Program-made: the position numbers and the translations under genes
Shown: positions 4,002-42,671 of the stretch, piece by piece
Numbering within the stretch: position 1 is the stretch's first letter
Layout: each line of letters opens with the position of its first letter
DNA from: Oscillospiraceae bacterium
GTDB lineage: Bacteria > Bacillota > Clostridia > Oscillospirales > Oscillospiraceae
Assembly (NCBI GenBank): GCA_017428565.1
Contig: JAFRQP010000083.1
Span: forward strand, 1 to 64,000
Length of the DNA stretch: 64,000 nucleotides
Reading direction: 5' to 3'
The notes under the pieces: model-generated
What the model saw: the letters and a program-made list of their open reading frames with translations, nothing else
Told to the model about the DNA's origin: nothing
Database searches by the model: none

Positions 4002-4016
4002 GAAAGGAGACCGAAC

Positions 4017-5162: not shown

Positions 5163-5181
5163 AAGATAAAGGAGAAAAAAC

Positions 5182-10844: not shown

Positions 10845-11658
10845 ACAGCTTCCTGTCCTTATCCGAGAACACGTTGAAGATCACGCGATCCATGCGCTCT
10901 CCGTGCTCGTCCAGCCATTCCGCGACCGTCCTGACCGCAATCTCTGCGGCCCTGTCTGCCGGGAAATGAAATACGCCTGTGGAGATGCAGCAGAAAGCCA
11001 CGGACCGCAGACCGTTCTCCGCGCATAAATCCAGCGTGTTGCGATAACAATCGGCAAGCTGCCGTTCATGCTCTTCTGTCAGCGGTCCCTCCACGATCGG
11101 CCCTACAATGTGGATGACCTTTTTCGCCGGGAGATTGTAGCCCTCCGTCAGCATGGGTACGGCAGTGGGCTGTTCATAGTCCCTGCCGTACTTTGCCCGA
11201 AGCAGCTTCATCTGCCGATCGCACTCCGAGCGGAGCTGCACCCCGGCGAAGGTGTGGATGCAGTTGTCGATGCAGGTGTGCATCGGGACGAAGCAGCCCA
11301 GCATCTGCGAGTTGGCCGCGTTGACAATGGCGTCCACGGCAAGCCGCGTGATATCGCCCTGCCAGAGAGAAAGCTGCAAGGCGTGAGCAACTGTGCTACC
11401 CTGCTCCGCGAGCGTGGGGATCTCCGCAAGAGGCACGGGCCCCTTTTCGGCGTTTCGTTCGCTCAGGTATTCATCCTGTACGGTGAGCACCTCATCCGGC
11501 AGCCTTCGCGGCATGCGGATGTTCATTAGGGATCGAAGGATCCGCCGTTTTCCATCCACATCTTGCGGTGTCTGCAGATCTCTATATTTTTCGGAGTCGG
11601 CCTTGAATTCCTCCACGAGATAATCCAGGCGCTGCTCCTGTGTCATTTTCTCTTTCAT
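10825..11658 (-). CDS. Zinc-containing macrodomain protein ADP-ribosyl hydrolase
   Basis: A 277-residue protein-ADP-ribose hydrolase. The macrodomain begins near residue 97 with WQGDITRL and the ADP-ribose loop IVNAANSQMLGCFVPMHTCI. Cys122, His127 and Cys129 fit the zinc-ligand set of the SirTM-linked macrodomains. A helical N-terminal extension of about 90 residues is normal for this group. It should remove the modification added by the overlapping SirTM. AGGAGGG precedes the chosen ATG by six bases; the longer frame upstream has no better site. Confidence 0.92.
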   Translation of the reverse strand: MKEKMTQEQRLDYLVEEFKADSEKYRDLQTPQDVDGKRRILRSLMNIRMPRRLPDEVLTVQDEYLSERNAEKGPVPLAEIPTLAEQGSTVAHALQLSLWQGDITRLAVDAIVNAANSQMLGCFVPMHTCIDNCIHTFAGVQLRSECDRQMKLLRAKYGRDYEQPTAVPMLTEGYNLPAKKVIHIVGPIVEGPLTEEHERQLADCYRNTLDLCAENGLRSVAFCCISTGVFHFPADRAAEIAVRTVAEWLDEHGERMDRVIFNVFSDKDRKLYERLLY

Positions 11659-11676
11659 GTTGAGCCCTCCTGCGAA

Positions 11677-11708
11677 CAAGGCTCCGGAGCAACTGTCCCG
11701 GAGCCTTG
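11677..11708 (-). other. Hairpin between Rrf2 and macrodomain genes
   Basis: An 11-bp inverted repeat CAAGGCTCCGG / CCGGAGCCTTG with a ten-base loop begins three bases after the Rrf2 stop. There is no T run after it on the minus strand, so partial read-through into the macrodomain gene is likely. It could act as an attenuator or RNA-stability element. Confidence 0.6.
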
Positions 11709-11710
11709 CA

Positions 11711-12148
11711 CTATTCATTTGCGATCAATTCCAGCGCGCCGGAGCGGAGATCTTCGACGGTATATCGCTTCATCTCGTCTTCCATGGCGCCCTGTATGGC
11801 CTGCAGCTTCTGATCGAGCAGAGCGTGAATGTTCCTTCCCACCGGGCATTCGGGATTTGGGTTCTCGTGGAAGTGGAACAGATCGCCGTTTTCGATCGGC
11901 TCGATCGCCTCGTACACGTCATAGAATGTGATCTCATTCAGCGGCTTTGTGATCGTGATGCCGCCTGTACCTCTGGCGACCTCGATCAGCCCAGCGGTTT
12001 TGAGCTGCGTTAGAATTTTACGAATGATCACAGGATTGGTGTTGATCGATCCGGCAAGGAAGTCGCTGGTTACCTTGTAATCGTCCTTGAACACCTCTAC
12101 GCAGGTGAAGATATGTAGCGCGACCGTAAATCTGCTGGAAATCTGCAT
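11711..12148 (-). CDS. Rrf2-family transcriptional regulator
   Basis: A 145-residue Rrf2 protein: N-terminal winged helix with the recognition segment NTNPVIIRKILTQLKTAGL and the wing GTGGITI. The three-cysteine cluster of [2Fe-2S] Rrf2 proteins is incomplete; only Cys in FTCVEVF and in NPECPVG are seen, so an iron-sulfur cluster is uncertain. AGGAGGTGG precedes the ATG. An operator of the form TGCTGTAA-N9-TTACATCA overlaps its -35 region, and the same site overlaps the -35 of the upstream SnoaL gene, so it probably represses itself and that gene. It may sense a redox or metabolite signal linked to the ADP-ribosylation pair downstream. Confidence 0.92.
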   Translation of the reverse strand: MQISSRFTVALHIFTCVEVFKDDYKVTSDFLAGSINTNPVIIRKILTQLKTAGLIEVARGTGGITITKPLNEITFYDVYEAIEPIENGDLFHFHENPNPECPVGRNIHALLDQKLQAIQGAMEDEMKRYTVEDLRSGALELIANE

Positions 12149-25342: not shown

Positions 25343-25373
25343 TTGACTCTATAGCCGCAATAGACGCTACAGT
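25343..25373 (+). promoter_or_regulatory. MerR-type promoter of the deacylase/PLP operon
   Basis: TTGACT (25343-25348) and TACAGT (25368-25373) are separated by 19 bases, the overlong spacing that MerR activators correct. The spacer begins CTATAG, as in the promoter at 28767-28797. The start codon is only about 33 bases downstream. Confidence 0.7.
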
Positions 25374-25405: not shown

Positions 25406-26365
25406 ATGAAAACTGGCGAAATATGCTTTGGCGATGTACGTGCAGAGGCAGGGAAAAAAGCAGAGGGCTATGCACCCGTCCTGGACACAGGCTACCGCAT
25501 GCCCATTACGGTAATTAACGGCGCCCATGAGGGACCGACGGTGTTAATCACCAGCGGTGTCCACGGCGGCGAATATCCCGGCATCCAAACAGCCATTGAG
25601 CTCTCCAGGGAGCTGGATCCTCAAAAGATCCATGGGCAGATCGTGCTCATCCATCCGATAAACCTGCACGCTTTCTATCAGCGCGTATCTTACTGCGTCC
25701 CGGAGGATGGGAAAAACATCAACCGCGTCTTCCCCGGGAAGCCTGACGGCACCCTGGCCGAACAGATCGCTTATGTGGTCTCCGAGCAGTTCCAGGCCCG
25801 CGCGGACTATCACCTGGACCTGCACGGCGGAGACCTGCACGAGCAGCTTCCCAGCTATGTTTACTATCCAAACGTGGAGGATCCCTACGTCGTCAATCGC
25901 TCCCGGGAGATCGCCGACATGCTGGAAGCTACCTTCCAGGTCAAAACCAAGAACTTCGGCGGCGCGGTGGGTTCCGCAGGATTGCGCCATCACATCCCTG
26001 CACTGCTGATCGAGCGCGGCGGACGCGGGCTCTGGAGCAGGGAAGAGGTGGAGGACTACAAGGCGAATATCCGCAACGTTCTGCGCTTTCTGCAGGTCTG
26101 CGAGGGTGAGGCGGTGCGCCCGGAGAAGCAGGCGATCACTGTGGTGGACGACGCCACGCTGGCTGCCTCCCGGAGCAGCGCTTGGTATCCCTGCGTCTCC
26201 CTGGGCGACGCCGTCAAAGAAGGGCAACAGATCGGCGAGCTGCGGGATCTTTTCGGCAATGTGCTGGAGACGATCCGGGCACCCTTCGACGGGCTTGTCA
26301 TTTACATGGTCGTATCGTTGGCTGTGGCGGAGGGCGATCCGCTGATCACCATCGGTATGATATAA
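25406..26365 (+). CDS. Succinylglutamate desuccinylase/aspartoacylase-family deacylase
   Basis: A 319-residue zinc-dependent carboxypeptidase-like enzyme of the AstE/AspA group. The zinc motif HxxE occurs as SGVHGGEYPG (His53, Glu56); later zinc and substrate residues lie in NINRVFPG and DYHLDLHGGD. The C-terminal third (from about residue 235) has the beta-rich domain with the pattern VSLGDAVKEGQQIGEL, similar to biotinyl-like lobes of bacterial AspA homologues. Such enzymes cleave the amide of N-acyl amino acids. It is the first gene behind the MerR-type promoter and precedes the PLP enzyme by 35 bases. AGGAGG precedes the start. Confidence 0.9.
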   Translation: MKTGEICFGDVRAEAGKKAEGYAPVLDTGYRMPITVINGAHEGPTVLITSGVHGGEYPGIQTAIELSRELDPQKIHGQIVLIHPINLHAFYQRVSYCVPEDGKNINRVFPGKPDGTLAEQIAYVVSEQFQARADYHLDLHGGDLHEQLPSYVYYPNVEDPYVVNRSREIADMLEATFQVKTKNFGGAVGSAGLRHHIPALLIERGGRGLWSREEVEDYKANIRNVLRFLQVCEGEAVRPEKQAITVVDDATLAASRSSAWYPCVSLGDAVKEGQQIGELRDLFGNVLETIRAPFDGLVIYMVVSLAVAEGDPLITIGMI

Positions 26366-26400: not shown

Positions 26401-27600
26401 ATGGAAAAAAAGTACTCATCTGCGTCGGAGCTGCTCCATTGCGGAGATTCGGTCCAGACTCTGAAGGTTTCCACCGAGGCGATGCCCCTGTATGCGACTA
26501 CTGCGTTTACCTGGAAGACCCTGTCTGAGGCAGAGGCGACCTACCAGCGCGTAGAACAGGGCTATGATTACACCTATATCCGCACCTGCAACCCCAACCG
26601 TGATGCGCTTTCAGAAGTGCTCACCTTCCTGGAGCACGGCGAAAAGTCGCAGATATTCTCCTCAGGCATGGGCGCTATCAGCAGCACGCTGCTGACCCTG
26701 GTCCACCCGGGCGATCATATCATTTACTCCAACTGCTGCTACGGCGAGACTTTGGACATCATCCGGGAACTGCTAACCGGCTACGGTGTTGAGACCTCCT
26801 GCGTGGACTTCAACGACAACCAGAATATTCTGAACGCCGTGCGGCCCAACACCAAGATGATCTACACCGAGACCGTCGCCAACCCCGCCATCGGCCTGGC
26901 CGACATCCCCACCCTGGCGAAGATCGCCCATGAAAACGGCGCGCTGCTGGTGGTGGACAACACCTTCACCACGCCCATCGCGTACAAGCCCCTGGACCAC
27001 GGCGCGGACCTGGTCATCAACAGCCTGACCAAGTTCATCAATGGTCACAGCGACGCTATCGCAGGCTCCGTGACCGGGCCCAAAGATATGATCAACAAGA
27101 TCTATCATGTGGGCATGTTCCTGGGCACACCCAGCACGCCCATGGATTCCTGGCTGGTGCTGCGCGGCGTCAAGACCATTGAGCTCCGCCTGCCCAAGCA
27201 GATGGCCAATGCCGCCAAGCTGGCCGCGGCCTTGGAGAAGGATCCACACGTGGAAAAGGTCATGCATCCCAGTCTGGAAAGCCATCCCCGTCATAAGCTG
27301 GCTCTGGAGATGTTCGGCAGCAACGACCGGATGGGCGCCATGATGAGCATCGTTCTCCCTGAGGACGTGAAGAAGATGGATGATTTCATGTCCAGACTAC
27401 ATCTGTCTCATTACGCACCTACCCTGGGCGGGATCCGCACAACCTTCCAGAATCCCTGCACCTCGTCCCACCGCCACAATTCCGACGCCGAGCGCCGCGC
27501 CGCCGGCATCACCCCAGGCATGATCCGCATCTCTGTGGGCTGCGAGGACGCAGATGACCTGATTGCGGACTTCACTCAGGCGCTGAAAGCTTTCGACTGA
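26401..27600 (+). CDS. Cys/Met metabolism-type PLP-dependent enzyme
   Basis: A 399-residue fold-type I PLP enzyme of the cystathionine gamma-synthase/lyase family. PLP-binding features: SSGMGAISSTLLTL, VVDNTFTTP and INSLTKFINGHSD with the Schiff-base lysine Lys211. The cysteine that marks methionine gamma-lyase in LYGCT is replaced by NCCYGET. It could eliminate or replace a gamma- or beta-substituent of an amino acid released by the upstream deacylase; the sequence does not define which. GGAGG lies eight bases before the start. It ends before a terminator shared with the MerR gene. Confidence 0.93.
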   Translation: MEKKYSSASELLHCGDSVQTLKVSTEAMPLYATTAFTWKTLSEAEATYQRVEQGYDYTYIRTCNPNRDALSEVLTFLEHGEKSQIFSSGMGAISSTLLTLVHPGDHIIYSNCCYGETLDIIRELLTGYGVETSCVDFNDNQNILNAVRPNTKMIYTETVANPAIGLADIPTLAKIAHENGALLVVDNTFTTPIAYKPLDHGADLVINSLTKFINGHSDAIAGSVTGPKDMINKIYHVGMFLGTPSTPMDSWLVLRGVKTIELRLPKQMANAAKLAAALEKDPHVEKVMHPSLESHPRHKLALEMFGSNDRMGAMMSIVLPEDVKKMDDFMSRLHLSHYAPTLGGIRTTFQNPCTSSHRHNSDAERRAAGITPGMIRISVGCEDADDLIADFTQALKAFD

Positions 27601-27735: not shown

Positions 27736-28554
27736 TCAGTCGCCCAGGTAGAACTGTACAATAAAAATGGAATCGTCGAAGTCTGAGATACTGGTCTCGA
27801 TTTCCTCAGCGATGGCAAGCCTGGGCGCGGGGCGGTTCCGGAAAATCTCCCGCACCAGGGAGGGATCCCAGATGCCGCGGCGGAGTTTGGACTGGGTACA
27901 GAGATACTCACCAGCTGGAAGGGTCAGCACATTCTTGTGATTGACCTCAGGCTTGGTGGAAAGAAGCATCCCACAGCCGGTAGGGGAATAGTCTATCCTG
28001 CAGAAATCCTCGAAATCAATGGGAAAGACAAATTGAAACTGGCAGGGGAGCGTTCTGTATTCGGGCAGGTTTTTCATTCGGAGAAGGCGGCGGTATATCT
28101 GGTTTGTGGTCTCGCCCTTTTTGCCGGACTCCAACAGAACATAGCGTTCTTCAAAGTACTGGCGCATGGGGATGTCGGGATAGTCCGTGGAGATCGGGTG
28201 GAAGGAATCGCAATAGGAACTGATTTCCCGCAGCAGAGTATCATAGGTGTCCCGCTTTTCCCGGATGATCAGCTTTTGCCGTTCCAGACAATCCTTCAGG
28301 TAGCCAGTGCCCCCGTTTTTATAGACCGCCTGGATCTCCTCCAGGGAAAAGCCGAAGCGCTGCAGGTACTTTACCCGGTCGATGAGCTGAAATTGCTCCG
28401 GCAGATAATAACGGTATCCGGAGGAGTCGCTGATATAGGCGGGTGAGACCAGACCCATCTTGCTGTAATAGCGGAGCGTCTGCACAGATACGCCGCAGAT
28501 CTCGGCGGTCTCACCAATGGAGTAATACTGCTTTTCGTTGAAGTTCTTCATCAT
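27736..28554 (-). CDS. MerR-family regulator with effector-binding C-terminus
   Basis: A 272-residue MerR regulator. The winged helix reads YYSIGETAEICGVSVQTLRYYSKMGLVSPAY, of which YYSIGETAEICGVSV and TLRYYSKMGL are the recognition parts, then a coiled-coil dimerisation helix (residues about 80-125), then a GyrI/BmrR-like effector domain of about 140 residues. The effector domain suggests a small organic inducer rather than a metal. It sits between two transcription units whose promoters share TTGACT, CTATAG and a 19-bp spacer. These are textbook MerR targets, so it very likely activates both. Two adjacent ATG codons could serve as start. Confidence 0.93.
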   Translation of the reverse strand: MMKNFNEKQYYSIGETAEICGVSVQTLRYYSKMGLVSPAYISDSSGYRYYLPEQFQLIDRVKYLQRFGFSLEEIQAVYKNGGTGYLKDCLERQKLIIREKRDTYDTLLREISSYCDSFHPISTDYPDIPMRQYFEERYVLLESGKKGETTNQIYRRLLRMKNLPEYRTLPCQFQFVFPIDFEDFCRIDYSPTGCGMLLSTKPEVNHKNVLTLPAGEYLCTQSKLRRGIWDPSLVREIFRNRPAPRLAIAEEIETSISDFDDSIFIVQFYLGD

Positions 28555-28766: not shown

Positions 28767-28797
28767 TTGACTCTATAGTTGCTACAGACAGTATAAT
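28767..28797 (+). promoter_or_regulatory. MerR-type promoter of the NhaC/LarA-like operon
   Basis: TTGACT (28767-28772) and a consensus TATAAT (28792-28797) are 19 bases apart. The spacer carries the inverted repeat CTATAG-TTG-CTACAG, a MerR operator. TTGACTCTATAG is identical to the promoter at 25343. Confidence 0.85.
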
Positions 28798-29102: not shown

Positions 29103-30584
29103 ATGTTCAAATTCAAGAAAGCTGAAAAACGCGCGCCAACCTTTATTGAGTCCATCCTGACGGTCGGCGTTCTGGTCGTCCTCATCGCGCTCGGCTTCCT
29201 GGTGTTCAACTGGCCTGTGGCCATGATGATGATCGCGGCTGCGATTTTTGCCGCCCTCATGGCCATGCGCTGCGGCTACACCTGGAAAGAGCTGGAGAAG
29301 GCGATCAGCACAAAATTCGCATCCATCAACTCCATCATACTGATCCTCTTTTTCCTCGGCGCGGTGGTGGCGTCCTTCGTATACAGCGGCACCATCCCCT
29401 ACATCGTATCCATCGCCATCAAGATCCTGAACCCGAAGCTGCTCTACGTGGTGACCTTCCTGGCCTGCGCGCTGATGTCCTCCGCCACCGGCGGCTCCTG
29501 GTCCACGGCGGCTACGATGGGCATGGCGATGTTCGGCGTGGCCGTGGGCATGAACGCCAACCTGACCGTCACGGCGGCCGCCGCGATCTGCGGCTCCTTC
29601 TTCGGCGACAAGATGTCCCCGATCTCCGAGACCACCAACCTGGCTCCGCTGTGCGCCGGCTCCAACCTGTATGAGCACATCGGCTCCATGCTTTGGACTA
29701 CCGTTCCCACTGCGGTGGTCTGCATCGTGGTCTACCTGCTCTACGGCACCAGCATGACCGGCGGCGAGACGCCCGAGACCGCCGTCAAGATGCTGGAGAG
29801 CCTGAACAGCATGTTCAAGTTCAATATCATCCTGCTGATTCCCTTCGTGATCATCATCGTCGCAGCCATCGTCAAGGCGCCGGCGCTGCCCACCATGGTT
29901 CTGGCCACCATCAGCGCGCTGCTTCTCGGCGCCTGGTACCAGGGCTTCTCCTTCGCGGACGGCCTGAACGCCTGCCTCGGCGGCTGCACGCCCGCCTCCC
30001 TGGGCATCAGCGATACTTCCGGGTATGCGCCTGAGGCCGTCAGCCTGGTGACGAAGGGCGGCATGAAGGGCATGGCCGGCACCATCATCACCGTGTTCTC
30101 CGGCTACGTCTTCGCGTCCATCGTCAGCCACGTGGGCTTCATGCAGAAGGCGGTGTCGCCGATCCTGAAGATCTGCCGCAAGAACCGCTTCACCCTGGTG
30201 CTCGGCACCCTGGTCACGGACGGTGCCCTGATGGCGCTGGGCGGATCCTCTTATCCCGCCCACATCATCTCTGGCGAGATGTTCCGCAAGGAGTATGCCG
30301 AGATGGGCATCGACGCCCGCGTCCTCTCCCGTACGATGGAGGACTTCGGCACCGTCGGCAGCCCGCTGATCCCCTGGACCGGCTCCGGCGCGTACATGGC
30401 GGGCCTCTTCGGCATTGCGGCCTACGGCGCCGGCGGCTTTGCGCCGCTGGCCATTCAGTGCTGGCTGACCTCGATCGTGGCCCTGATCCTGGCCGCCACC
30501 GGCATCGGCATGTATCCCATGTCCGAGGAGAAGAAGAAGGAGGTCCTCGAGGCTCTGGAGAAGGAGAATTCCACAGAGCAGTAA
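29103..30584 (+). CDS. NhaC-family Na+/H+ (or substrate/cation) antiporter
   Basis: A 493-residue membrane protein with about 12 segments of the NhaC family, whose members exchange Na+ for H+ or for organic acids such as malate and lactate (MleN type). Family text includes FMALMSSATGGSWSTAATMG (here ACALMSSATGGSWSTAATMG) and SFFGDKMSPISETTNLAPL. The start is ambiguous: ATG at 29103 has GAGGA two bases away, and ATG at 29094 is also possible. It is the first gene of the second MerR-type unit, so it most likely brings in or exports a metabolite of this pathway. Confidence 0.88.
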   Translation: MFKFKKAEKRAPTFIESILTVGVLVVLIALGFLVFNWPVAMMMIAAAIFAALMAMRCGYTWKELEKAISTKFASINSIILILFFLGAVVASFVYSGTIPYIVSIAIKILNPKLLYVVTFLACALMSSATGGSWSTAATMGMAMFGVAVGMNANLTVTAAAAICGSFFGDKMSPISETTNLAPLCAGSNLYEHIGSMLWTTVPTAVVCIVVYLLYGTSMTGGETPETAVKMLESLNSMFKFNIILLIPFVIIIVAAIVKAPALPTMVLATISALLLGAWYQGFSFADGLNACLGGCTPASLGISDTSGYAPEAVSLVTKGGMKGMAGTIITVFSGYVFASIVSHVGFMQKAVSPILKICRKNRFTLVLGTLVTDGALMALGGSSYPAHIISGEMFRKEYAEMGIDARVLSRTMEDFGTVGSPLIPWTGSGAYMAGLFGIAAYGAGGFAPLAIQCWLTSIVALILAATGIGMYPMSEEKKKEVLEALEKENSTEQ

Positions 30585-30617
30585 ACGAAATCCATTGAGA
30601 CAGAAAGGCGGAACGAT

Positions 30618-31007
30618 ATGAGATTGATGCACACCAGATTTCCGGACTTCATCGCCAAGATGAAGGCTGCCGCAAGGCTGAACCGTCCGGATACAGAGGT
30701 CACGATCGAGGGCATGGAGAACATCAAGACCGGCAAGGTCGCCTCCCTGCGCGTTGGCAGAGTGGAATGCGACCTGGTGGACCTGACCTCCGATCCCGAG
30801 ATCAAGAAGGTTCAGATCATCGTGGTTCCCAGGATGCCGGAGACTGCCCACACGGTCATCATGAAGGGCATCCGGGAGGACGGAACGGCGAAACGGGCCA
30901 TTTTGGAAAACATCATTCTGACGACGCCGGCGGCGGAGTGCGAGCTGTACGACGTGGACGAAGTCATTGATCGCCGCACGCCCTTCCGTGTGGCGGAGCC
31001 GAAATAG
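30618..31007 (+). CDS. Conserved-looking protein of unknown function (operon gene 2)
   Basis: A 129-residue soluble protein that I do not recognise. It alternates beta-strands and short helices (ASLRVGRVECDLVDLTSD, VQIIVVPRMPETAHTVIMKG) and ends in a basic tail. There is no signal peptide or membrane segment and only one cysteine. It follows the antiporter by 33 bases and precedes the 342-residue protein by 37 bases, so the pair may form one enzyme or complex. AAAGGCGG lies before the start. Confidence 0.75.
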   Translation: MRLMHTRFPDFIAKMKAAARLNRPDTEVTIEGMENIKTGKVASLRVGRVECDLVDLTSDPEIKKVQIIVVPRMPETAHTVIMKGIREDGTAKRAILENIILTTPAAECELYDVDEVIDRRTPFRVAEPK

Positions 31008-31044
31008 GCCGGATCAGAACGGAATGGCGAAAGAGGATGAAAAA

Positions 31045-32073
31045 ATGGCTGAACTGAAGTATAAGGTGATCCCCAAGGGAGCGGCAGAAGGGCGTATCCC
31101 CATTAATCTCATTTATATCGACAAGGCGGACGTGGCCAAGGCCGGGATCCTGATGAAAGAGGCGTGCACCATCGTCGCGAAGGATTTTCACGACGCGGCC
31201 TCCATCGACGTGATCGACACCAGCGCGATCACCGTCACCAGCGACGGCATCGTGGCCGACTGCGCCGTGGTCGCCTTCGCCTCGGTGGACAACGGCAAGA
31301 TCGACCGGGAATTCGGCTTCATCGGCGTGTCCGAGATCCCCTATACCCGCAAGCTGATCGAGGAGGAGCCTCACATGCGGCAATGGGATCTGCTGCACAG
31401 CGGAAAGCGGCTGTACCGCGGTCCCTCCTATGAGGACATGATCCCCCGCGCCGCCTTCAACGAGACCCAGACCTACACCGGCCGCATCGCCAACAACAAC
31501 ACGGGCTCCGAGGTCATGGACGTGATCGACATGACCGAGATCCTGACGCCCATTTTCGGCCTGCAGGAGATCATGCAGGACGGCGAGGTCACCATCGGCG
31601 TCGCCGGTCCGGAGATCTCCGTCGGCATCGGCATGGTGGTGCGGGAGCGGCAGGGACGGATCTTCAACTGGGCCTACGGCGCCGGCAAGACGGCCCACGC
31701 CTCCGGCGTGTTTGCCAAAACCGTCAAGAGCGACTACCCGGCCATCATGGCGCCCAAGCCGGTGCTGGCGAAGAAGATCCTGGAGGCCCTGGACATCGAC
31801 ATGGTTCCCGGACGGGACATCGCCTGTTCGCCGGCGATCCTGTGCGTGGCGAAGGCGGGCGGCTATCCCATCGACCTGGAAAACATCGAGGACAAGGCCT
31901 GGGTGGAGCTGGAGAGCATCGGCATCGACAGAGCGTTTCTGGAGGCCGAGACCCAGCCCATTAGCAGGGAGCAGATCCTGGCCGACGCTGACCGGATCAT
32001 TCCCGGCATCGTGGACCCCAAGACCTTCAAGGTCGCGGACATCTCGGAGATCCGTTACGCCCATTACGCGTGA
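31045..32073 (+). CDS. Unknown enzyme-like protein (operon gene 3)
   Basis: A 342-residue soluble protein with no family I can name. It has a strongly conserved-looking centre, GVAGPEISVGIGMVVRERQG then FNWAYGAGKTAHASGVFAK, and later DIDMVPGRDIACSPAILCVA, which look like active-site loops. GAGKT resembles a nucleotide loop, but the surrounding fold does not fit a P-loop ATPase. The chosen ATG follows AGAGG; an earlier in-frame ATG at 31024 is possible. A hairpin right after its stop separates it from the LarA-like gene. It probably acts with the 129-residue protein upstream. Confidence 0.8.
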   Translation: MAELKYKVIPKGAAEGRIPINLIYIDKADVAKAGILMKEACTIVAKDFHDAASIDVIDTSAITVTSDGIVADCAVVAFASVDNGKIDREFGFIGVSEIPYTRKLIEEEPHMRQWDLLHSGKRLYRGPSYEDMIPRAAFNETQTYTGRIANNNTGSEVMDVIDMTEILTPIFGLQEIMQDGEVTIGVAGPEISVGIGMVVRERQGRIFNWAYGAGKTAHASGVFAKTVKSDYPAIMAPKPVLAKKILEALDIDMVPGRDIACSPAILCVAKAGGYPIDLENIEDKAWVELESIGIDRAFLEAETQPISREQILADADRIIPGIVDPKTFKVADISEIRYAHYA

Positions 32074-32094
32074 TCCGAAGCAGAAACAAAGACG

Positions 32095-32127
32095 TCTCCC
32101 GTGCAGACTCCTGTTCTGCACGGGAGA
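32095..32127 (+). other. Intercistronic hairpin in the LarA-like operon
   Basis: A perfect 12-bp stem TCTCCCGTGCAG / CTGCACGGGAGA with a nine-base loop, starting 22 bases after one stop and ending six bases before an ATG. No T run follows, so it is probably an RNA-processing or stability element, not a terminator. It would hide the GGGAG that could serve the ATG at 32133. Confidence 0.75.
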
Positions 32128-32147
32128 TTCCTATGGAGGTAAAAAGG

Positions 32148-33437
32148 ATGCAGGAGCTTACCAAATTTTTGTCCGGGGTCCCGCTTCCGGATTTCGTCCG
32201 GGTGCGGCAGCGTTTTTCCCGGGAGGAGCTGAGCCCGGAGCAGATCGAGGAAAAGCTGATTCGGGAATTTCAGGCGCTCCGGCCCGTCAGCCCCGGGCAG
32301 CGGATCTGCATCACCTGCGGCAGCCGGGGCATCGCCAACATGCCCCTGGTCACGCGGCTTCTGGTCGAGCAGGTCCGTGCCGCCGGCGCCGAGCCCTTCC
32401 TGGTTACGGCCATGGGCAGCCACGGCGGCGCCTCTGCGGAGGGGCAGCTTCAGATGCTGCGTAGTCTGGGTATTTCCGAGGAGAGCATGGGCTGCCCGAT
32501 CCTTTCCTCTATGGAGACGGTAAAACTCACCGAGATCGAGGGTCTTCCGGTGTATATGGACCGCTTCGCGGAGGAGGCAGACGGCATTATTGTGCTGAAC
32601 CGGGTCAAAATGCACACATCTTTCCGGGGAGACTATGAGAGCGGCCTTCTGAAAATGCTCTCCGTCGGCTTGGGTAAGCAGCGGGGTGCGGACTTGGTCC
32701 ACGCCGGCGGAGAAGACGATATGGCGCGGCGGATTCGTTTGATCGGAGGCGCGGCGCTTCATGCGGCCCCGGTGGTGCTTGGCGTGGCACTTCTGGAAAA
32801 CGCCTTTGAAAAGACATTCGCCCTGGAACTGCTCCCCCCTGATCAGATCGAGGCACAGGAGCCTGCGCTGCTCAAGCGGGCCAAAGAGCGCATGGCGCAG
32901 ATCTATTTCCCAGACTGCGATATCCTAGTGGTGCACAGCATCGGAAAGAATTACAGCGGCGCCGGTGCGGATCCCAATATAGTGGGGCGTTGTGCAAATC
33001 CCAAGCTGAAGTCCGGTGTACGCTGCAAACGGATGGCCTTTTTTGATCTGAGCGATGAGTCCCACGGTAACGCTACGGGCATTGGCCGGGCGGACATCGT
33101 CTCTCGCAGGCTATATGAAAAAATGGAGTTCAACGAGACCTACTACAATTTCATCACCTGCAACACGCCGGATACCTTTAAGATCCCCGTGGTTCTGGAC
33201 AGTGACCGGACGGTTCTGCAGGGCTGCATTCAGACCTGCGTTGGCATTGACCGGGACCGCCCCCGTATCCTCATGATGGACAACTCCCTGGAGACGGAGT
33301 ATCTTCTAATCTCCGAGGCTATGCTGCCGGAGGCGGAGAAGCTCGAGAACGTTGAGATCGTTAGCAATGCCTTTCCCCTCGTTTTCGACGCGGAGGGCAC
33401 ACTTCTCACCCCGATAAAGCCTGTGCTTGCAATTTAG
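32148..33437 (+). CDS. LarA-like (nickel-pincer nucleotide) racemase/epimerase
   Basis: A 429-residue protein of the lactate-racemase-like (DUF2088/Lar_N) superfamily. Conserved text: RICITCGSRGIANMPLVTRL, FLVTAMGSHGGASAEGQ, EADGIIVLNRVKMHTSFRGD then YESGLLKMLSVGLGKQ. These regions hold the histidines and lysine that in LarA carry the nickel-pincer cofactor and substrate. The sequence resembles a LarA homologue group of clostridia rather than true lactate racemase. It would invert or isomerise a 2-hydroxy acid. The start at 32148 has GGAGG eight bases upstream; the ATG at 32133 is possible. NadD in the same operon makes the cofactor precursor. larB, larC and larE are not in this window. Confidence 0.82.
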   Translation: MQELTKFLSGVPLPDFVRVRQRFSREELSPEQIEEKLIREFQALRPVSPGQRICITCGSRGIANMPLVTRLLVEQVRAAGAEPFLVTAMGSHGGASAEGQLQMLRSLGISEESMGCPILSSMETVKLTEIEGLPVYMDRFAEEADGIIVLNRVKMHTSFRGDYESGLLKMLSVGLGKQRGADLVHAGGEDDMARRIRLIGGAALHAAPVVLGVALLENAFEKTFALELLPPDQIEAQEPALLKRAKERMAQIYFPDCDILVVHSIGKNYSGAGADPNIVGRCANPKLKSGVRCKRMAFFDLSDESHGNATGIGRADIVSRRLYEKMEFNETYYNFITCNTPDTFKIPVVLDSDRTVLQGCIQTCVGIDRDRPRILMMDNSLETEYLLISEAMLPEAEKLENVEIVSNAFPLVFDAEGTLLTPIKPVLAI

Positions 33438-33477
33438 GTGTTTTTTCGGTATTCTGAAGAAAAGGAAGGTGTGGTCC

Positions 33478-33840
33478 ATGCAATCTCAATTTGTGATCGC
33501 TCACGCAGACAAGACGGTGCTGCGGATTTCCGGCCTAAGCGTCAAAGGTATGAATACCCGCCAGCTGGAGCAGCTTCTGGAGGTCCGGCTTCTGTCCCGC
33601 GTGCGCGTCATCGGCGTCACGGGGGACGCGGTGGAGATGGACGTCTACGGACTCTCCCCGGAGCAGATCCGACAGGATGAGCGTGGGATTATCCAGGCTC
33701 TGGCCCTGGCCGACGGGATCACCGTCACGGACCTGGCGAAGATTTGCGACAACAGGAAGATCGTGGACGTGCGCTATGAGGATATCCCCGAGGAGCCCAG
33801 CTCCATGTGCATGAGAGAAAGGTGGATCAAGCGGACATGA
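33478..33840 (+). CDS. Small protein of unknown function (operon gene 5)
   Basis: A 120-residue protein that I do not recognise. It has a beta-alpha alternating pattern (FVIAHADKTVLRISGLSVKG, RVRVIGVTGDAVEMDVYGL) and an acidic-to-basic C-terminus. The start has GGAAGG and the chosen ATG gives a 40-base gap from the LarA-like gene. Its last four bases overlap the start of the MoaB-like gene (ATGA), so the two are translationally coupled. Confidence 0.75.
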   Translation: MQSQFVIAHADKTVLRISGLSVKGMNTRQLEQLLEVRLLSRVRVIGVTGDAVEMDVYGLSPEQIRQDERGIIQALALADGITVTDLAKICDNRKIVDVRYEDIPEEPSSMCMRERWIKRT

Positions 33841-34400
33841 AGCGTGTTTTTCTTCTCCCTACCGGGGACGAGATCCGAAACGGGCTGGTGCTGGATACTG
33901 ATTCCCCGGCCATCCTGGAGCGGATCCTGCATTCGTACCCGGAAGCACAGGTCTGCAGATTGCCGCCGGAGTTGGACGATGAGGACGCTATTTTGAGGCG
34001 GATCGTGACGCTTGCTGCGGAAGCACCAGATCTGATCCTGCTCATTGGCGGCAGCGGCGGCGGCCACCGCCACAGCAGTACCCTGGGGAAGGACTACACC
34101 CACTCGGCGCTGGAGCAATGCCTGCGTCCCGCCTTTTCCAGCGAGATCTACGGGAAGAACGGGCATCTTTGGACCCGTCTGATCTGCGGTAAGTGGGAGA
34201 ATACCCTGGTGGTGAATGTGCCGGGACCCTATGTGGAGGCCTGTGCAGCTGCGGACGCTTTTCTGGCCGCCTACGGAGCCGGGAAAGGTCTGCGGGAGAT
34301 CAACCATGCCATGGCAGAGGCGGTATATGCCCAATACCCTGCCGGAGGTGCAGAAGGGAAAAGAAGATGGGACGATACGGTGGAGTTTGCGAAAAATTGA
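33837..34400 (+). CDS. MoaB/MogA-like molybdopterin-binding fold protein
   Basis: A 187-residue protein with the MoCF_biosynth fold: start MKRVFLLPTGDEIRNGLVLD, loop DLILLIGGSGGGHRHSS and late VVNVPGPYVEACAAADAFL. In MogA and MoaB this fold binds molybdopterin; CinA-type proteins use it for nucleotide-like ligands. The usual TTGGTG motif of MoaB is IGGSGGG here, so molybdenum cofactor work is not proven. It overlaps the preceding gene by four bases and the next gene by 34 bases. In an operon with a nickel-pincer enzyme it may handle a nucleotide-like cofactor. Confidence 0.75.
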   Translation: MKRVFLLPTGDEIRNGLVLDTDSPAILERILHSYPEAQVCRLPPELDDEDAILRRIVTLAAEAPDLILLIGGSGGGHRHSSTLGKDYTHSALEQCLRPAFSSEIYGKNGHLWTRLICGKWENTLVVNVPGPYVEACAAADAFLAAYGAGKGLREINHAMAEAVYAQYPAGGAEGKRRWDDTVEFAKN

Positions 34401-34957
34401 CAACGAAACAGGGCTTCCCGCTTTCCTTGGGCCTGCTGTGCCGGAAAGAAGACGAGAAGAACTGGGAAGCGCGCTGTGCGGCCCTGAGAGAACTGAGGAT
34501 CGAGGATGCGGAGCTCTACGATGTAGACTATCTGTTGGCAGCAGCGCTGAGGGATCTGCTTGACGAGTCGATTCCTGTTGCCGGAGCGGCGATCTGCGTT
34601 CCGGCGCTTCCCTCCGGAGCAACTGGAGGCGTGATCGGCTGCCCCCGCCGACCCATTCTTGCGTCCGAAGGAGAGGCGGAGCGCCTTGCGGACGATTTTC
34701 TTCTTCTGACAAGACCGGGAGGGCCAGGCCTTGCCGCCAAGGGTGAAACAGAGGAGCTTGTCTGGCTGTGGAAGAAACTATGTTCGTTTCATCTTCCAGA
34801 GGACAGAGAGCGGGTCTGCGCGTTGCTTTCCAAACTGGGGACAGGCTGTGCTTTGGCTGTCTATGACGGCAGCGGCGAGGCTTGCGGAGGCGTGTTTGTG
34901 CTGACAGAGAGCTGCGTCCGTTGGGCGCTTACGTGCGAGGAGGAGAGCCATGACTGA
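34367..34957 (+). CDS. Unknown protein coupled to NadD (operon gene 7)
   Basis: A 196-residue protein without a family I can name. It is rich in leucine, alanine and acidic residues, with seven or more cysteines scattered (for example LLCRKED, ARCAALREL, AAICVPALP, VIGCPRRP, GCALAVYD). It overlaps the MoaB-like gene by 34 bases and NadD by eight bases. A lipoyl- or metal-related role is possible but not supported. The ATG at 34367 was picked because AAGGG precedes it; a longer frame upstream covers the MoaB-like gene in another frame. Confidence 0.7.
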   Translation: MGRYGGVCEKLTTKQGFPLSLGLLCRKEDEKNWEARCAALRELRIEDAELYDVDYLLAAALRDLLDESIPVAGAAICVPALPSGATGGVIGCPRRPILASEGEAERLADDFLLLTRPGGPGLAAKGETEELVWLWKKLCSFHLPEDRERVCALLSKLGTGCALAVYDGSGEACGGVFVLTESCVRWALTCEEESHD

Positions 34958-35567
34958 AGCCGCGGGCAGGATGAGAATCGGCCTCCTGGGCGGCGCATTC
35001 GACCCCATTCACAGGGGTCACCTGGCGCTGGCAAGAGCGGCGCTGGAGCTTGAGAACTTGGATCAAGTGCTCTTCGTCGTGGCGGCGGAGCCGCTCCACA
35101 AGCGGCCTGAGGCTTCGGCTACGGATCGCCTTGCCATGGTGAGCGCTGCGCTGGAGAAGGAGCCAGGGATGGCCAGTTGTGATGTTGAGTTCGGTATGCA
35201 AGGCCCGGTGTACACGGTGGACGCTGTTCAGATGCTTCGTCGGCAACTCCCAAACGCGGAATTTGTGCTGATTTTGGGCGGTGACGCTGCGGTCTCATTT
35301 CCGTTCTGGTACGGGAGCGAGCGACTTGCGTCGATGCTGCGCCTGGCCTGTTTCCCACGAGGGGGGGAAGATCTTTTTCCGCCGCTCCGAGATGAATGCG
35401 GAGTAGGGGAGGCAACGCTTTTTGCCTGTTATTCCGTGAAGCTCCCTGCCATTTCTTCTTCCCAAATCCGGGAAAGACTGCGCGCAGGAGAGGCCGCATC
35501 AGAGCTTCTGCCGCCGGCGGCGGCAGCATTTATCCGCGCAAAAGGCCTTTATCAAGAGCATACATAA
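34950..35567 (+). CDS. nadD: Nicotinate mononucleotide adenylyltransferase
   Basis: A 205-residue NadD, which joins nicotinate mononucleotide and ATP to nicotinate adenine dinucleotide (NaAD). The nucleotide-binding motif is GGAFDPIHRGHLALARAAL (residues 14-32) and the C-terminal ISSSQIRERLRAGE matches the ISST.IR motif. HKxR is seen as LHKRPEASATDRL. AGGAGGAGAG lies just before the ATG. It overlaps the previous gene, so it belongs to this operon. Because NaAD is the starting point for the nickel-pincer nucleotide, a role in supplying the LarA-like enzyme is likely. A normal NAD biosynthesis role is the alternative. Confidence 0.93.
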   Translation: MTEAAGRMRIGLLGGAFDPIHRGHLALARAALELENLDQVLFVVAAEPLHKRPEASATDRLAMVSAALEKEPGMASCDVEFGMQGPVYTVDAVQMLRRQLPNAEFVLILGGDAAVSFPFWYGSERLASMLRLACFPRGGEDLFPPLRDECGVGEATLFACYSVKLPAISSSQIRERLRAGEAASELLPPAAAAFIRAKGLYQEHT

Positions 35568-38606: not shown

Positions 38607-38768
38607 CTCACTTGACCATTATAATGGAATCCGGCGTTTTTGCAAGGAGCAAACGGCGCATTTACCGGACAAATGTGGTGAAATGTGGGAAGATGCCACG
38701 AAGAGCGCGTTTTGACCGTTTGCAAGGGTCTCTCGTTCTGCTACAGTAGCAGCAAAGGGGGCGGAAGA

Positions 38769-41700
38769 ATGGAACAGAATTTTATGATGAAACTTGCGGC
38801 CTTTATCGTGGAGCGCAGGCGATGGTTCCTTGCCCTTTTTGTGGCTATGATCGTCTTTTCGGTGTTTTCCATCCGCTGGATCCAGGTGGAAGAGGACATC
38901 ACCAACTACCTACCCGAGGAAGCCGAGGCCAAGCGGGGCCTCTTCATCATGGAGCAGGAGTTCACCACCTACGGCACGGCCAAGGTCATGGTGAAGGGGA
39001 TCAGCCCGGAGGAGGCGAGCCGGCTTTCCGAGGAGCTTTCCGGCGTGGAGGACGTGGTCCTCGTCCAGTATGACGAGAGCCCTTCCCACTACGCCGAGGG
39101 CAGCGCTCTGTTTGACCTGACCTTTGCGGACACCGCCGTGTCGGAGCGCAGCGAGCGGGCGCTGGAGCGGGTGGAGGAGCTGCTGCAGGATCGGGATACC
39201 ACCATCTACACCGAAGTGGGCTTCAGCCTGTCCAAGCTGCTGGCGGAGCAAATGCTGACGGTGCTGATCTTCGTGGTCATCGTGGTGCTGTCCGTGCTGC
39301 TCTTCACCTCCAGCACCTATGCCGAGATCCCGGTGATGGTGCTGACCTTCCTGGTGGCCGCGGTCGTCAACATCGGCACCCACTTTATGATGGGCACCAT
39401 CTCCTTCGTCTCCAATTCCGTAGGGATCGTGCTGCAGCTTGCTCTGTCGGTGGACTATGCCATCATCTTCTGCAACCGCTACAAGGAGGAGCATGAGCGC
39501 CTGGGCGTCCGCGACGCGGTGGTGAAGGCGCTGGCAGCCTCCATCCCGGAGATCTCCGCCAGCAGTCTGACCACCATCGCCGGCCTCACCGCCATGACCA
39601 TGATGAAGTTCAGCCTTGGCGCGGATCTGGGACTGACGCTGATCAAGGCCATCGTCTGCAGCCTGCTGACGGTGTTTCTCTTCATGCCCGCGCTGCTGAT
39701 GCTTTTCGGCAAGGCCATGGACAAGACCCGGCACCGCCGCTTTGTCCCCAAGATCAACTTTGTGGGCCGCTTTGCCTATGCCACCCGCTATGTGATGCCG
39801 ATCTTCTTCGTGCTCCTGGTGGCGGGGGGCTACTATATGGTCCAGCGGGTGAACTACGCTTACGGCATGGACATGGTGCCCGCCTTCCGGCAGACGGAGA
39901 TGGAGGAGGCCAAGGAGGAGATCCGGGACCGCTTCGGCACCAGCAACGCCGTGGCGTTGATCGTTCCCTCCGGCAGCTTCGGCGCGGAGCGGGCGCTGCT
40001 GGAGGAGCTGTCTGCCTGCCCGGAGGTGAAAAGCGCAACAGGGCTTGCGTCCATCCCGGCGATGGACGGCTACTGCATCGGCGACGAGGTGGATTATGCC
40101 GAGTTTGCCGCCATTGCCGGCGTGGACGAGACCAGCGCCCAGGCGCTCTTTGCTTACTACGCGGCGGAAAACGGGGATCACCGCGCCGTGCGGGAGGATC
40201 TTTCCGGTTACAGGGTCTCGCTGCTGGACATGTTTCTCTTCCTCCATGACCGCATGGAGGCCGGGGACGTGGAGCTGGACGAGAGCCAGGCCCGGATGGT
40301 CCGGGAGCTCTACGAGCAGCTCAGCATGGTCCGCTCCCAGCTCACCAGCGAAAACTACAGCCGCATGATCCTGGATCTGAACCTGCCCGTCCAGTCCGAG
40401 GAGACCTTCCGCTTCCTGGATCGGATCCACCGGATCGCCGCCCGGTACTATCCCCAGGGCGTGGTCCTCACCGGCGACTCGGTGAGCGCCCTGGGCTTCA
40501 AGGACTCCTTCTCCGAGGACAACACCGTGGTGGGCCTCATGAGCCTGGGCCTTGTGATGCTGATCCTGTTTTTCACCTTCCGCTCCTTCGGGATGCCCCT
40601 GCTGCTGATCCTGGTGATCCAGGGCAGCATCTGGCTGAATTTCGCTGTCGCCGCGCTGAAGGGCGATTACGTGTTTTTCCTCTGCTACATCATCGTGGGC
40701 GCCATTCAGATGGGCGCCAACATCGACTATGCCATCGTGGTATCCTCCCGGTATCGGGAGCTGCGGGAGAGCATGGAAAAAAAAGAAGCCATGATCGAGA
40801 CGCTGAACCTGGCCTTTCCCACGGTGATCACCTCGGGCCTCATGATGGTCTGCGCCGGGCTTCTGGTGGGCTTCGGCGTGTCCCAGTGCATCGTGGCCGG
40901 AATGGGCTACTATGTGGGCACCGGCACCAGCATCTCCCTGGTGCTGATCCTGTTCGCGCTGCCCCAGGTGCTTCTGCTGGGCGAGCAATTTGTGTCCGCC
41001 ACCACGCTGCAGCCTGAAAAGTCCCGCCTGCTGGGCTTCCTGTCCCGGAACCGGCGGCGTCTTACGGGTGCGCTTCTGGCGGGAGCCTGCCTGTTCGCGC
41101 TGCTTGTGGGGCCCGGCTCCGTCAAGCAGGGGGCGGCGCTTCTGAACCAGTCGAGGGAGCAGGTGGATCTGCTCCTGCAGGAGACCGGGGAGCTGCGCAG
41201 CCTTGCCCAAAAGCTGGAGGACGAGGGCGCGGATCTGGACGCGCTGAAATATGATTTTGCCCAGCAGCTTGTCACCGACGAGCTGGGCTCCGCCCAGCTT
41301 GCCGAGGGAGAACAGCTGCTGCAGGAGGGCGAGGAGCTCTACAACAGCGGTCTGGAAGAGTACAACGAGGGCGCTGCCCAACTGGAAGCAGCGGAGGCCC
41401 AGTACTACGCCGGCGCCTCCCAACTTGCCGACGCCCAGGCCAAGTACGATGCGGGCCTTGCCGCCTACAACGAGGGCGTTGCCCAGTACGAGGCGGCGCA
41501 GCAGGAGCTGGCGGAGGGCCAGGCGGCCTACGACGCGGGCCTCGCGGCCTATGAGGAGGGCCAGCAGGCGCTGGCGGAGGGCCAGGCGGCCTATGACGCG
41601 GGTCTGGCCGAGTATAACCGGGCCCAGGCCGCGCTGAACGCGGTTGCGCCGCTCTACTGGGCGGCTCTCGGCCTGCAGCAGCGAGTAGAGGAGCTGCAGC

Positions 41701-42671
41701 GCCAGTATGACGAGGCCATCGCCCAGGAGGACTACGGCCGTGCGACGATCCTGGCCGGGCAGCTGAGTCTGGCCCGCGCCGCTCTGGAGACCCAGCTGGG
41801 GGGCATGAGCCTTGCGACGCTGATCACCAGATATGAGGAGGCCCAGGCCCAGCTTGCCGAGGCGGAGCAGCAGCTTGCCGAGGGCAAGCAGGCCCTGGAC
41901 GAGGGCTACGCCCAGGCGGCGGAGGCGGAGCAGCAGCTTGCCGAGGGCAAGCAGGCCCTGGACGAGGGCTACGCCCAGCTGGCGGAGGCGGAGCAGCAGC
42001 TGGCCGATGCCGAACGGCAGCTGGAGGAGGGCAAGCGCGCCCTGGACGAGGGCTATGCCCAGCTTGCCCAGGGCGGCTGGCAGATCTACCAGGGCCGCGA
42101 GCAGCTGGACGAGGCCCAGCAGCAGCTGGCCGAAGGCAGCGCCGAGCTGGAGGAGAACCGGGAGAAGCTGGAGGAAGGCCGGGAGCTGCTGGAGGAGAAT
42201 CTGGAGGCGCTGAACGGGAGCCTGGCGGCTCTGGACCAGTACAGCGACGAAATGGAGCGCCTGCAGCAGGGGCTCCGCATCCTGAAGGAGGAAAAGGGGA
42301 TCCGGGAGCTGCTGCCGCCCCATCCCGGCGCTTTTGAGGTGCTGGACGCGGCGGAGAGCTATTATCGCGGCCGGCTGCAGGAGATGGAGACCCAGGAGAA
42401 CGCTGCCCGCATCGCAGGCGCCCTGCTGCTGATCGCGGTGCTGCTTGCGGCAGCGGCGCTGATCCTCTCTCCCAGACGGGACAAAGCGCTGCTGGCCGGC
42501 GCGCTGGCCGGCGCCATGGCGGGGCTGTTGAGTCTGGCGGCGCTGCTCTTCTGGCGCAGCCGCTGCGGCGCGCTGGAGGGCCTGCTGCCCCTGGCGGCGC
42601 TGCTGCTTGCGATCTTTTCCGCCCTGTTTTCCGAGTTCTTGTTTCGAAAACGGCGTGCCGAGAGAGCGTGA
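38769..42671 (+). CDS. MMPL/RND-superfamily transporter with long coiled coil
   Basis: A 1300-residue membrane protein. The N-terminal half is an MMPL/RND transporter with one segment near residue 20, a periplasm-facing domain and a cluster of six segments (about 150-345); the pattern repeats at about 590-760. Between residues 784 and 1175 lies an unusual alanine-, glutamate- and glutamine-rich coiled coil with near-identical repeats (LAEGKQALDEGYAQ three times near 1021-1095), then three C-terminal segments (1207-1290). YhgE/Pip-like insertions of this kind occur in Firmicutes lipid or peptide exporters. It is preceded by a divergent TetR gene. The substrate is unknown. Confidence 0.9.
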   Translation: MEQNFMMKLAAFIVERRRWFLALFVAMIVFSVFSIRWIQVEEDITNYLPEEAEAKRGLFIMEQEFTTYGTAKVMVKGISPEEASRLSEELSGVEDVVLVQYDESPSHYAEGSALFDLTFADTAVSERSERALERVEELLQDRDTTIYTEVGFSLSKLLAEQMLTVLIFVVIVVLSVLLFTSSTYAEIPVMVLTFLVAAVVNIGTHFMMGTISFVSNSVGIVLQLALSVDYAIIFCNRYKEEHERLGVRDAVVKALAASIPEISASSLTTIAGLTAMTMMKFSLGADLGLTLIKAIVCSLLTVFLFMPALLMLFGKAMDKTRHRRFVPKINFVGRFAYATRYVMPIFFVLLVAGGYYMVQRVNYAYGMDMVPAFRQTEMEEAKEEIRDRFGTSNAVALIVPSGSFGAERALLEELSACPEVKSATGLASIPAMDGYCIGDEVDYAEFAAIAGVDETSAQALFAYYAAENGDHRAVREDLSGYRVSLLDMFLFLHDRMEAGDVELDESQARMVRELYEQLSMVRSQLTSENYSRMILDLNLPVQSEETFRFLDRIHRIAARYYPQGVVLTGDSVSALGFKDSFSEDNTVVGLMSLGLVMLILFFTFRSFGMPLLLILVIQGSIWLNFAVAALKGDYVFFLCYIIVGAIQMGANIDYAIVVSSRYRELRESMEKKEAMIETLNLAFPTVITSGLMMVCAGLLVGFGVSQCIVAGMGYYVGTGTSISLVLILFALPQVLLLGEQFVSATTLQPEKSRLLGFLSRNRRRLTGALLAGACLFALLVGPGSVKQGAALLNQSREQVDLLLQETGELRSLAQKLEDEGADLDALKYDFAQQLVTDELGSAQLAEGEQLLQEGEELYNSGLEEYNEGAAQLEAAEAQYYAGASQLADAQAKYDAGLAAYNEGVAQYEAAQQELAEGQAAYDAGLAAYEEGQQALAEGQAAYDAGLAEYNRAQAALNAVAPLYWAALGLQQRVEELQRQYDEAIAQEDYGRATILAGQLSLARAALETQLGGMSLATLITRYEEAQAQLAEAEQQLAEGKQALDEGYAQAAEAEQQLAEGKQALDEGYAQLAEAEQQLADAERQLEEGKRALDEGYAQLAQGGWQIYQGREQLDEAQQQLAEGSAELEENREKLEEGRELLEENLEALNGSLAALDQYSDEMERLQQGLRILKEEKGIRELLPPHPGAFEVLDAAESYYRGRLQEMETQENAARIAGALLLIAVLLAAAALILSPRRDKALLAGALAGAMAGLLSLAALLFWRSRCGALEGLLPLAALLLAIFSALFSEFLFRKRRAERA

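Follow-up and report, generated by a model that had tools for sequence, protein, structure and literature searches.

A conserved gene module around a group 22 nickel-pincer isomerase, with a second NadD and four families without a credible Pfam match

Introduction

Why should an operon that holds a LarA-like nickel-pincer isomerase end in a gene for NadD? The question is raised by positions 29103-35567 (+ strand) of a 64,000-nucleotide stretch of DNA (the window), positions 1 to 64,000 of contig JAFRQP010000083.1 in the Oscillospiraceae bacterium assembly GCA_017428565.1, a genome of 2.69 Mb in 105 contigs that is 84% complete (G000). The operon reads nhaC-u129-u342-larA-u120-moaB-u196-nadD, where u129, u342, u120 and u196 stand for four families without a credible Pfam match. 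According to passages of one paper, LarB adds CO2 to nicotinate adenine dinucleotide (NaAD), the product of NadD, and an extra NadD is suggested there as one route to boost NaAD for the nickel-pincer nucleotide (NPN; PMC11796402). Since LarB consumes NaAD and more NadD has been suggested to boost it, a dedicated NadD would be sensible as a supply.

The module around the group 22 LarA of this gut-type anaerobe is real and conserved, and it is apparently undescribed. We read it, with a probability of about 0.6, as a catabolic module of anaerobes built on an NPN-dependent isomerase that has its own source of cofactor and is accompanied by a new enzyme of two proteins, u129/u342. Within this reading the isomerase step would follow from protein family, and the supply role of the second NadD from family and gene position. 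Several questions arise. Is the set conserved or a chance neighbourhood? Is the NadD an extra copy? What would the MoaB-like protein and the four families do beside a LarA?

The operon

All genes named in the original prediction lie where it had placed them, on the + strand; its title had counted three unknowns, whereas four such families (129, 342, 120 and 196 aa) are present. The genes are read as one transcript because the gaps in the first part are short (33-59 nt) and are followed by three overlaps (4, 34 and 8 nt), the last of which, between u196 and NadD, bears out the claim that NadD overlaps the operon end. Coordinates of these open reading frames (ORFs) depend on start codons picked among alternative codons. 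The first gene encodes an NhaC-family antiporter/transporter (29103-30584, 493 aa; PF03553, 147.7 bits vs. 23) that falls just under the cut-off of the NhaC Na+/H+ antiporter model (TIGR00931, 339.6 vs. 370). It is followed by u129 (30618-31007, 129 aa), with an AlphaFold2 model of predicted local distance difference test (pLDDT) score 86.4, u342 (31045-32073, 342 aa; pLDDT 92.5, predicted template modelling score 0.92), the LarA homolog (32133-33437, 434 aa) and u120 (33478-33840), whose C-terminal C-x-x-E-R-W is invariant in an alignment of 31 sequences. Then come a MoaB/MogA-like protein (33837-34400, 187 aa; PF00994, 32.0 vs. 26.6 bits), u196 (34367-34957; alignment of 18) and NadD, a nicotinate mononucleotide adenylyltransferase (34950-35567, 205 aa; TIGR00482, 136.5 vs. 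112.45 bits).

Conservation of the set

Could the window simply be a stretch of unrelated metabolic genes? A sporadic distribution would suit such an explanation: among 60 near relatives (own genome included) u342 occurs only in its own genome, and because the 59 others are without it, the set may have come by transfer. The 391 class genomes (own included) gave five u342 matches, of which those in G000, G333 (58%) and G374 (46%) are real; the weak matches in G427 and G100 lie inside ORFs that look RecG-like by eye and were discounted as chance. A single-sequence u342 search of the genome contigs found none, and a three-row profile gave 46 loci in 37 other genomes (GTDB species genomes), hereafter the module genomes; no u342 match was found in the plasmids and phages searched. 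The module genomes are nearly all Clostridia or unplaced Firmicutes, with one Chitinivibrionales metagenome-assembled genome (MAG), and include the named carriers Clostridium luticellarii, Sedimentibacter hydroxybenzoicus, Fusibacter ferrireducens and Clostridium aestuarii.

Across all 46 loci, many of them cut by contig ends, phmmer (E 1e-4) detected u129 in 41, u120 in 34, MoaB in 30, LarA in 24, u196 in 18 (4 of these matches below 50 bits) and NadD in 8, and u129 stands directly upstream of u342 in 41 of the 46. In the 23 wide loci, where the sequence extends 4.5 kb or more to either side of u342, the genes present within 9.5 kb are u129 (23), u120 (21), MoaB (19), u196 (16), LarA (14), a PorA-type gene (10), NadD (6), LarB (4), LarC (3) and LarE (2). 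Two genomes (G453, G457) keep the order LarA-u120-MoaB-u196-NadD as in the window. The fullest set spans about 12 kb in L109, with NadD, u120, MoaB and u196 on one strand and u129, u342, LarA, a TRAP transporter, larE, larB and larC on the other. Since the same genes are conserved in other genomes, the ORFs of the window are not chance ones, and the conservation of the set across loci led us to reject a chance operon; with 37 other genomes carrying the set, the window order kept in two of them and the operator sites described below, the probability of chance neighbours is close to nil.

The isomerase and the lar genes

The window LarA passes the curated NCBIfam cut-off for "nickel pincer cofactor-dependent isomerase, group 22" (NF052515, 484.1 vs. 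400 bits), which supports its naming as LarA-like. R60, H156, K169 and H185 (numbering from 32148) occur in all 18 aligned LarAs and H92 in 17, and the spacing of these five putative cofactor and catalytic positions, 32/64/13/16, resembles the 33/66/10/16 of LarA1 when the two are compared by position along the chain; the LarA1 residues given in the available part of PMC11770544 are R75, H108, H174, K184 and H200. The original prediction had also called for a look at larB, larC and larE in the genome: all three lie at a single locus on contig C16 over their curated cut-offs (LarB 280.6 vs. 175, LarE 224 vs. 150, LarC1 207.3 vs. 90 and LarC2 148.2 vs. 50 bits).

Group 22 LarA over cut-off is found in 31 of the 37 module genomes, compared with 24 of 391 class genomes and 3 of 60 near relatives (Fisher p 3e-27, with 3 module genomes taken out of the class background), and larC in 29 of 37 compared with 175 of 391 (p 1e-4), both in tests that treat related genomes as independent. 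Some LarA-like match at E 0.01 is present in 36 of the 37. Five of the 46 loci contain larB (L095, L109, L111, L115, L116), where 0.25 would be expected at one larB per 2.5 Mb (Poisson p 7e-6), L111 and L115 being related. Together with u129, u120 and MoaB near u342 in 23, 21 and 19 of the 23 wide loci, the 31 of 37 give a positive answer to the co-occurrence test that had been proposed.

In a tree of 53 LarAs, 23 of them near the module, that of the window falls in a clade of 16 (starred) with 15 module-linked members; the sixteenth (L067) comes from G333, whose module is on another contig. The remaining module-linked LarAs sit on separate branches, so that at least four gains or losses of the link are forced, with "module-linked" assigned by location alone and two rows doubtful (L096, on the opposite strand, 5 kb off and on a long branch, and L113, on the opposite strand). 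Even so, several LarA subgroups are tied to the module. One group 22 LarA (L064) neighbours larC1-larE-larB and, by eye, genes for 2-hydroxyacyl-CoA dehydratase, acyl-CoA dehydrogenase and Etf, a company which hints that some group 22 LarAs act on lactate-like acids. Stand-alone LarC N-terminal halves (one at L081 4490-5242) were also seen in several genomes that carry a full-length LarC as well (e.g., G374 and G459), and other genomes, e.g., G447, have adjacent LarC halves as in a frameshifted larC.

A second NadD

Two nadD copies score over cut-off in the source genome, that of the window and one on contig C28; the lack of another nadD, one of the refuting outcomes named in the original prediction, was thus not observed. 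The C28 copy is a NadD-YqeK fusion, preceded by a YhbY-like gene that narrowly misses its cut-off (75.6 vs. 78.5 bits) and followed by RsfS. The arrangement yhbY-nadD/yqeK-rsfS is the usual housekeeping setting of nadD. Because the C28 copy has this setting, the window NadD is an extra copy, and its assignment as the housekeeping enzyme was rejected, that role being filled by the fusion between the YhbY-like gene and RsfS. NadD nucleotidyltransferases carry the motifs G-FDP-H-GH and SS--R, which appear in the window protein as GGAFDPIHRGH and ISSSQIR; the N-terminal motif is apparently intact in the module NadDs inspected.

Is a second copy usual where the module occurs? NadD was counted in 38 genomes, the 37 module genomes and G333, which shares its matches with G462 and was taken as the same assembly. 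Eleven of the 38 (G447, G453, G457, G458, G459, G464, G466, G473, G477, G479 and G480), plus G000, have two NadDs over cut-off. Eleven of these 12 genomes have one of their nadD copies close to the MoaB gene, at a distance of 0.4-2.1 kb, and in the twelfth, G480, a nadD copy follows larE-larB-larC on the same strand. This run (L150; G480:C27:1-6000) comprises larE, larB, larC and nadD on a single strand, and the u129 of the module (L151) comes some 12 kb later on that contig. A second nadD near MoaB or lar genes in 12 of 12 two-nadD genomes thus upholds the idea that NadD is linked to nickel-pincer supply. In L118, u196 and NadD form one fusion protein of 402 aa.

The MoaB-like protein and a possible alternative role for NadD

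The MoaB-like protein of the window is far under the cut-off of TIGR00177 (25.2 vs. 85.35), and no molybdenum genes were noticed beside its gene, although no search was aimed at them. Proteins of this kind retain a GGSG motif and invariant aspartates, which we take to be catalytic in the MogA/MoaB fold. They constitute a subfamily of their own, present in 35 of 38 genomes (the 37 module genomes and G000; absent from G470, G472 and G478), in two strong copies in G447, G477 and G480 and in one copy elsewhere. A single MoaB accompanies three u342 loci each in G456, G460 and G461 and two each in G449 and G452. LarA is found in six of the nine loci of the three-copy genomes, two loci (L097, L108) ending at u342 by contig end. 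Two parts can thus be told apart: one that is repeated and probably bound to the substrate (u129, u342, frequently LarA and, in G456 and G461, u120), and one that is shared, MoaB. Because it is single-copy in five genomes with two or three u342 loci, the MoaB-like protein would serve the cofactor rather than one substrate. This cofactor side probably includes u196 too, which one genome has as a fusion with NadD; u120, repeated in two multi-u342 genomes, is assigned to neither side.

Might the module alter the cofactor, instead of merely feeding its synthesis? The MoaB-like protein and the second NadD could adenylylate NPN or a precursor to a dinucleotide used by u129/u342, on the models of MogA acting on molybdopterin and NadD on nicotinate mononucleotide. 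Two families of adenylyl-transfer type in a single module, the u196-NadD fusion and the single MoaB in the five genomes just named would agree with this, as would C. luticellarii (L111 in G374), where larB-u120-moaB-s54-porGAB-u129-u342-u196-larC1 has no LarA nearby. However, plain NaAD supply for LarB explains NadD equally well. Moreover, C. luticellarii and its relative BL-3 (G470) hold a group 22 LarA elsewhere in the genome, so that the lar genes by the C. luticellarii module need not serve u129/u342, and G470 has no module-type MoaB at E 1e-8. We therefore regard such a modification as improbable. Slightly more doubtful again is its extension, in which u129/u342 would be a second, unrelated class of nickel-pincer enzyme whose adenylylated cofactor is made via the MoaB-like protein, u196 and the second NadD.

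The u129/u342 pair

Pfam scans of u129 (37 members), u342 (44), u120 (31) and u196 (18) gave scattered insignificant matches, and no homology was seen in the pairs compared (u129/u120, u342/u196 and u342/LarA). A DapF/PrpF-like isomerase fold for u342 and a GHKL/HATPase fold for u129 were considered, the structural matches being too weak to claim. Within the supply reading, u129 and u342 are predicted to make up a new enzyme together, which would work on the substrate of the isomerase or on its product; their mutual pairing and the frequent company of LarA are what was observed. In variant loci (L097, L098, L099 and L108) u342 is followed by a sigma54-activator-like gene, u129 is present where the contig reaches, and u120 and MoaB are not in the locus. 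In one of these, L098, LarA lies directly upstream, and downstream there is an L-serine ammonia-lyase-like protein that scores slightly below its cut-off.

A number of observations weigh against an isomerase-centred module. For LarA itself, the Pfam domain Lar_N (PF09861) scores 18.1 bits in the window protein, under the gathering score of 23.3, and a profile comparison matched no solved LarA. For the association, related genomes were counted as independent; 9 of the 23 wide loci have no LarA, and 17 no NadD, within 9.5 kb; one module genome (G463, with L102) has no LarA match; and larC was not found in 8 of 37 module genomes, most of them MAGs. As u342 is absent from 21 of the 24 class genomes with group 22 LarA, this isomerase does not need the module, and the other operon genes were not beside the group 22 LarAs of class genomes (37 stretches scanned, with a LarA match in 34). 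For the division into shared and repeated parts, G456 and G461 repeat u120 along with u129/u342 but keep a single MoaB, both u342 and MoaB occur twice in G477, and G447 and G480 have two MoaBs with one u342 locus found. Finally, the NadD tree did not resolve the module NadDs as a single ancient paralog or clade.

Do these points indicate that u129/u342 and the rest form a set of catabolic enzymes with no tie to nickel chemistry, with LarA and its supply genes as one pathway step? The pair does keep varied company among transporters and enzymes, and the wide loci lacking LarA would follow naturally. Nevertheless, the clustering of extra NadD and lar genes with MoaB and u129/u342 would be left unexplained, as would the co-occurrence with one LarA group in 31 of 37 genomes, and we consider a set of this kind unlikely, while giving it some weight.

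Regulation and metabolic neighbours

What substrate might enter the module? A second operon upstream encodes an AstE/AspA-type, DoeB-like deacylase (25406-26365, +; PF24827, 90.8 bits vs. 25), which does not reach the N-acetyldiaminobutyrate deacetylase (DoeB) model (TIGR02994, 108.8 vs. 402.7), and a pyridoxal phosphate (PLP) enzyme of Cys/Met-metabolism type (26401-27600, +), with many NCBIfam matches, the best 25 listed all under cut-off, including the methionine gamma-lyase model (TIGR01328, 323.9 vs. 549.7). The promoters of this operon (25343-25373, +; TTGACT, a 19-bp spacer with dyad, TACAGT) and of nhaC-nadD (28767-28797, +; TTGACT, a 19-bp spacer with dyad, TATAAT) share TTGACTCTATAG and the dyad, and a gene for a MerR family regulator (27736-28554, -; PF13411, 5.1e-17) sits between the two operons. 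Such spacers are typical of promoters under MerR regulators. Perfect matches to the operator GACTCTATAG-N3-CWAYAG occur in the 84% complete genome only at 25345 and 28769, both in promoters with a 19-bp spacer. As the pattern was derived from this pair, the match of each is by construction; the weight lies in the two promoters sharing it and in the lack of a third perfect site. With up to three mismatches, 0.02 sites are expected in the window, and with up to two the genome has 2 forward and 1 reverse, compared with 1 and 1 for a backwards control. Elsewhere, a two-mismatch site lies about 120 bp before u129 in L102, which is supporting but not decisive because the 50 loci scanned contain further two-mismatch sites; MerR homologs of 31-33% identity are found directly after the module in L102 and 6 kb upstream in L105. 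From the promoter sequences it seems that the MerR regulator switches nhaC-nadD together with the deacylase and the PLP enzyme; the shared operator, and merR between the operons, probably place these two enzymes in the same response, in line with the co-regulation already suspected.

Two deacylase families with no relation to each other are represented near the module: the AstE/AspA type in the window and the M20 type, by clustering, in L104, L105, L106, L118 and L122 (of the two scanned with the ArgE/DapE model, L104 is over cut-off and L118 under). Relatives of the window PLP enzyme (46-54% identity) occur in L103, L105 and L107, in the last upstream of transporter and module on the same strand, and a more distant one (37%) in L102. 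These recurring enzymes fit an N-acyl amino acid substrate, but they prove nothing.

Among the other neighbours, a pyruvate:ferredoxin oxidoreductase is near the module in L121 (1850 bits vs. 911), and L111 and L115 have a subunit-type 2-oxoacid oxidoreductase; PorA is the top model for the L111 alpha subunit, which stays under its cut-off (487 vs. 550). Also present are M20 deacylases, TRAP, sodium/solute and Opp/Nik-type ABC transporters and, in L112, a threonate-type kinase and dehydrogenase (D-threonate kinase model under cut-off, PdxA over). These neighbours share a link to small hydroxy or oxo acids. For the ABC binding proteins of L102, L105 and L107 the nickel-binding model ranks best, best and second best; as all three are under its cut-off, nickel uptake is only a possibility.

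A possible outline of the process is as follows. NhaC would import the substrate or its counter-ion, and the group 22 LarA, judged by its family, would invert C2 of a 2-hydroxy acid. The second NadD would make extra NaAD for LarB, and the distant larB-larE-larC would fill LarA; gene position shows the link, and the flux is presumed. The predicted u129/u342 enzyme would act alongside or after the isomerase. Since many loci have 2-oxoacid:ferredoxin oxidoreductase genes close to the module, the pathway probably ends in a 2-oxo acid; given the operator shared with the deacylase and PLP enzyme operon, it may begin with an N-acylated amino acid. Of the original interpretation, then, the LarA, the NadD link, the lar genes, the co-occurrence and the operator stood, and none of its three refuting outcomes occurred; the conversion of an N-acyl amino acid to a 2-hydroxy acid is suggested.

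Other features of the window

Elsewhere in the window, genes for an aconitase-family hydratase (PF00330), PrpF (PF04303) and a MatC/CitMHS transporter stand in a row at 1731-6513 (+), beside a LysR-like gene (by eye; 556-1620, -); judged by its genes, the row looks like a tricarboxylate (aconitate-type) utilisation operon. At 9858-11718 (-), a macro domain protein (PF01661) overlaps a 328-aa protein that is sirtuin-like by eye and has no Pfam family at 1e-5, a pair which in our view resembles linked sirtuin-macrodomain pairs. An MMPL-type exporter (PF03176) with a long A/E/Q-rich repeat stretch lies at 38763-42671 (+).

Comparison with known systems

Nickel-pincer enzymes are a young family whose roles are mostly unassigned, and the module links one LarA group to four families without a credible Pfam match and to a dedicated source of cofactor precursor. 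Named carrier strains with genome records make it testable. If u129/u342 or the MoaB-like protein did act on the cofactor, pincer chemistry would reach beyond 2-hydroxyacid isomerisation.

A pathway of this composition had been thought to be undescribed, and none was found in the open literature searched: no paper joining LarA or LarB with NadD or MoaB was seen, supplementary tables of LarA papers lying outside the search, and "NadD" and "MoaB" are absent as terms from the text of PMC11796402. Group 22 is not among the 13 LarA groups assayed according to the available part of PMC7583248, if the NCBIfam group number is equivalent as assumed, and no group 22 activity was found in the portion of PMC11770544 covered.

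Four known systems come closest. The window LarA is like the LarA superfamily (NF052515) in its score over cut-off, the similar spacing of its putative cofactor and catalytic positions and the larB, larC and larE of its genome, and differs by the company of the four families. The lactate-racemase operon of Lactiplantibacillus plantarum likewise combines LarA with its own cofactor supply, and is not known to include u129, u342, u120, u196, MoaB or NadD. The MoaB-like protein shares PF00994, GGSG and the aspartates with the MogA/MoaB/Cnx1G molybdopterin adenylyltransferase fold and represents its own subfamily tied to u342. The NPN pathway of LarB, LarE and LarC is present here with all three proteins over cut-off, and the module differs from it by having a second NadD of its own, within the cluster or close to it.

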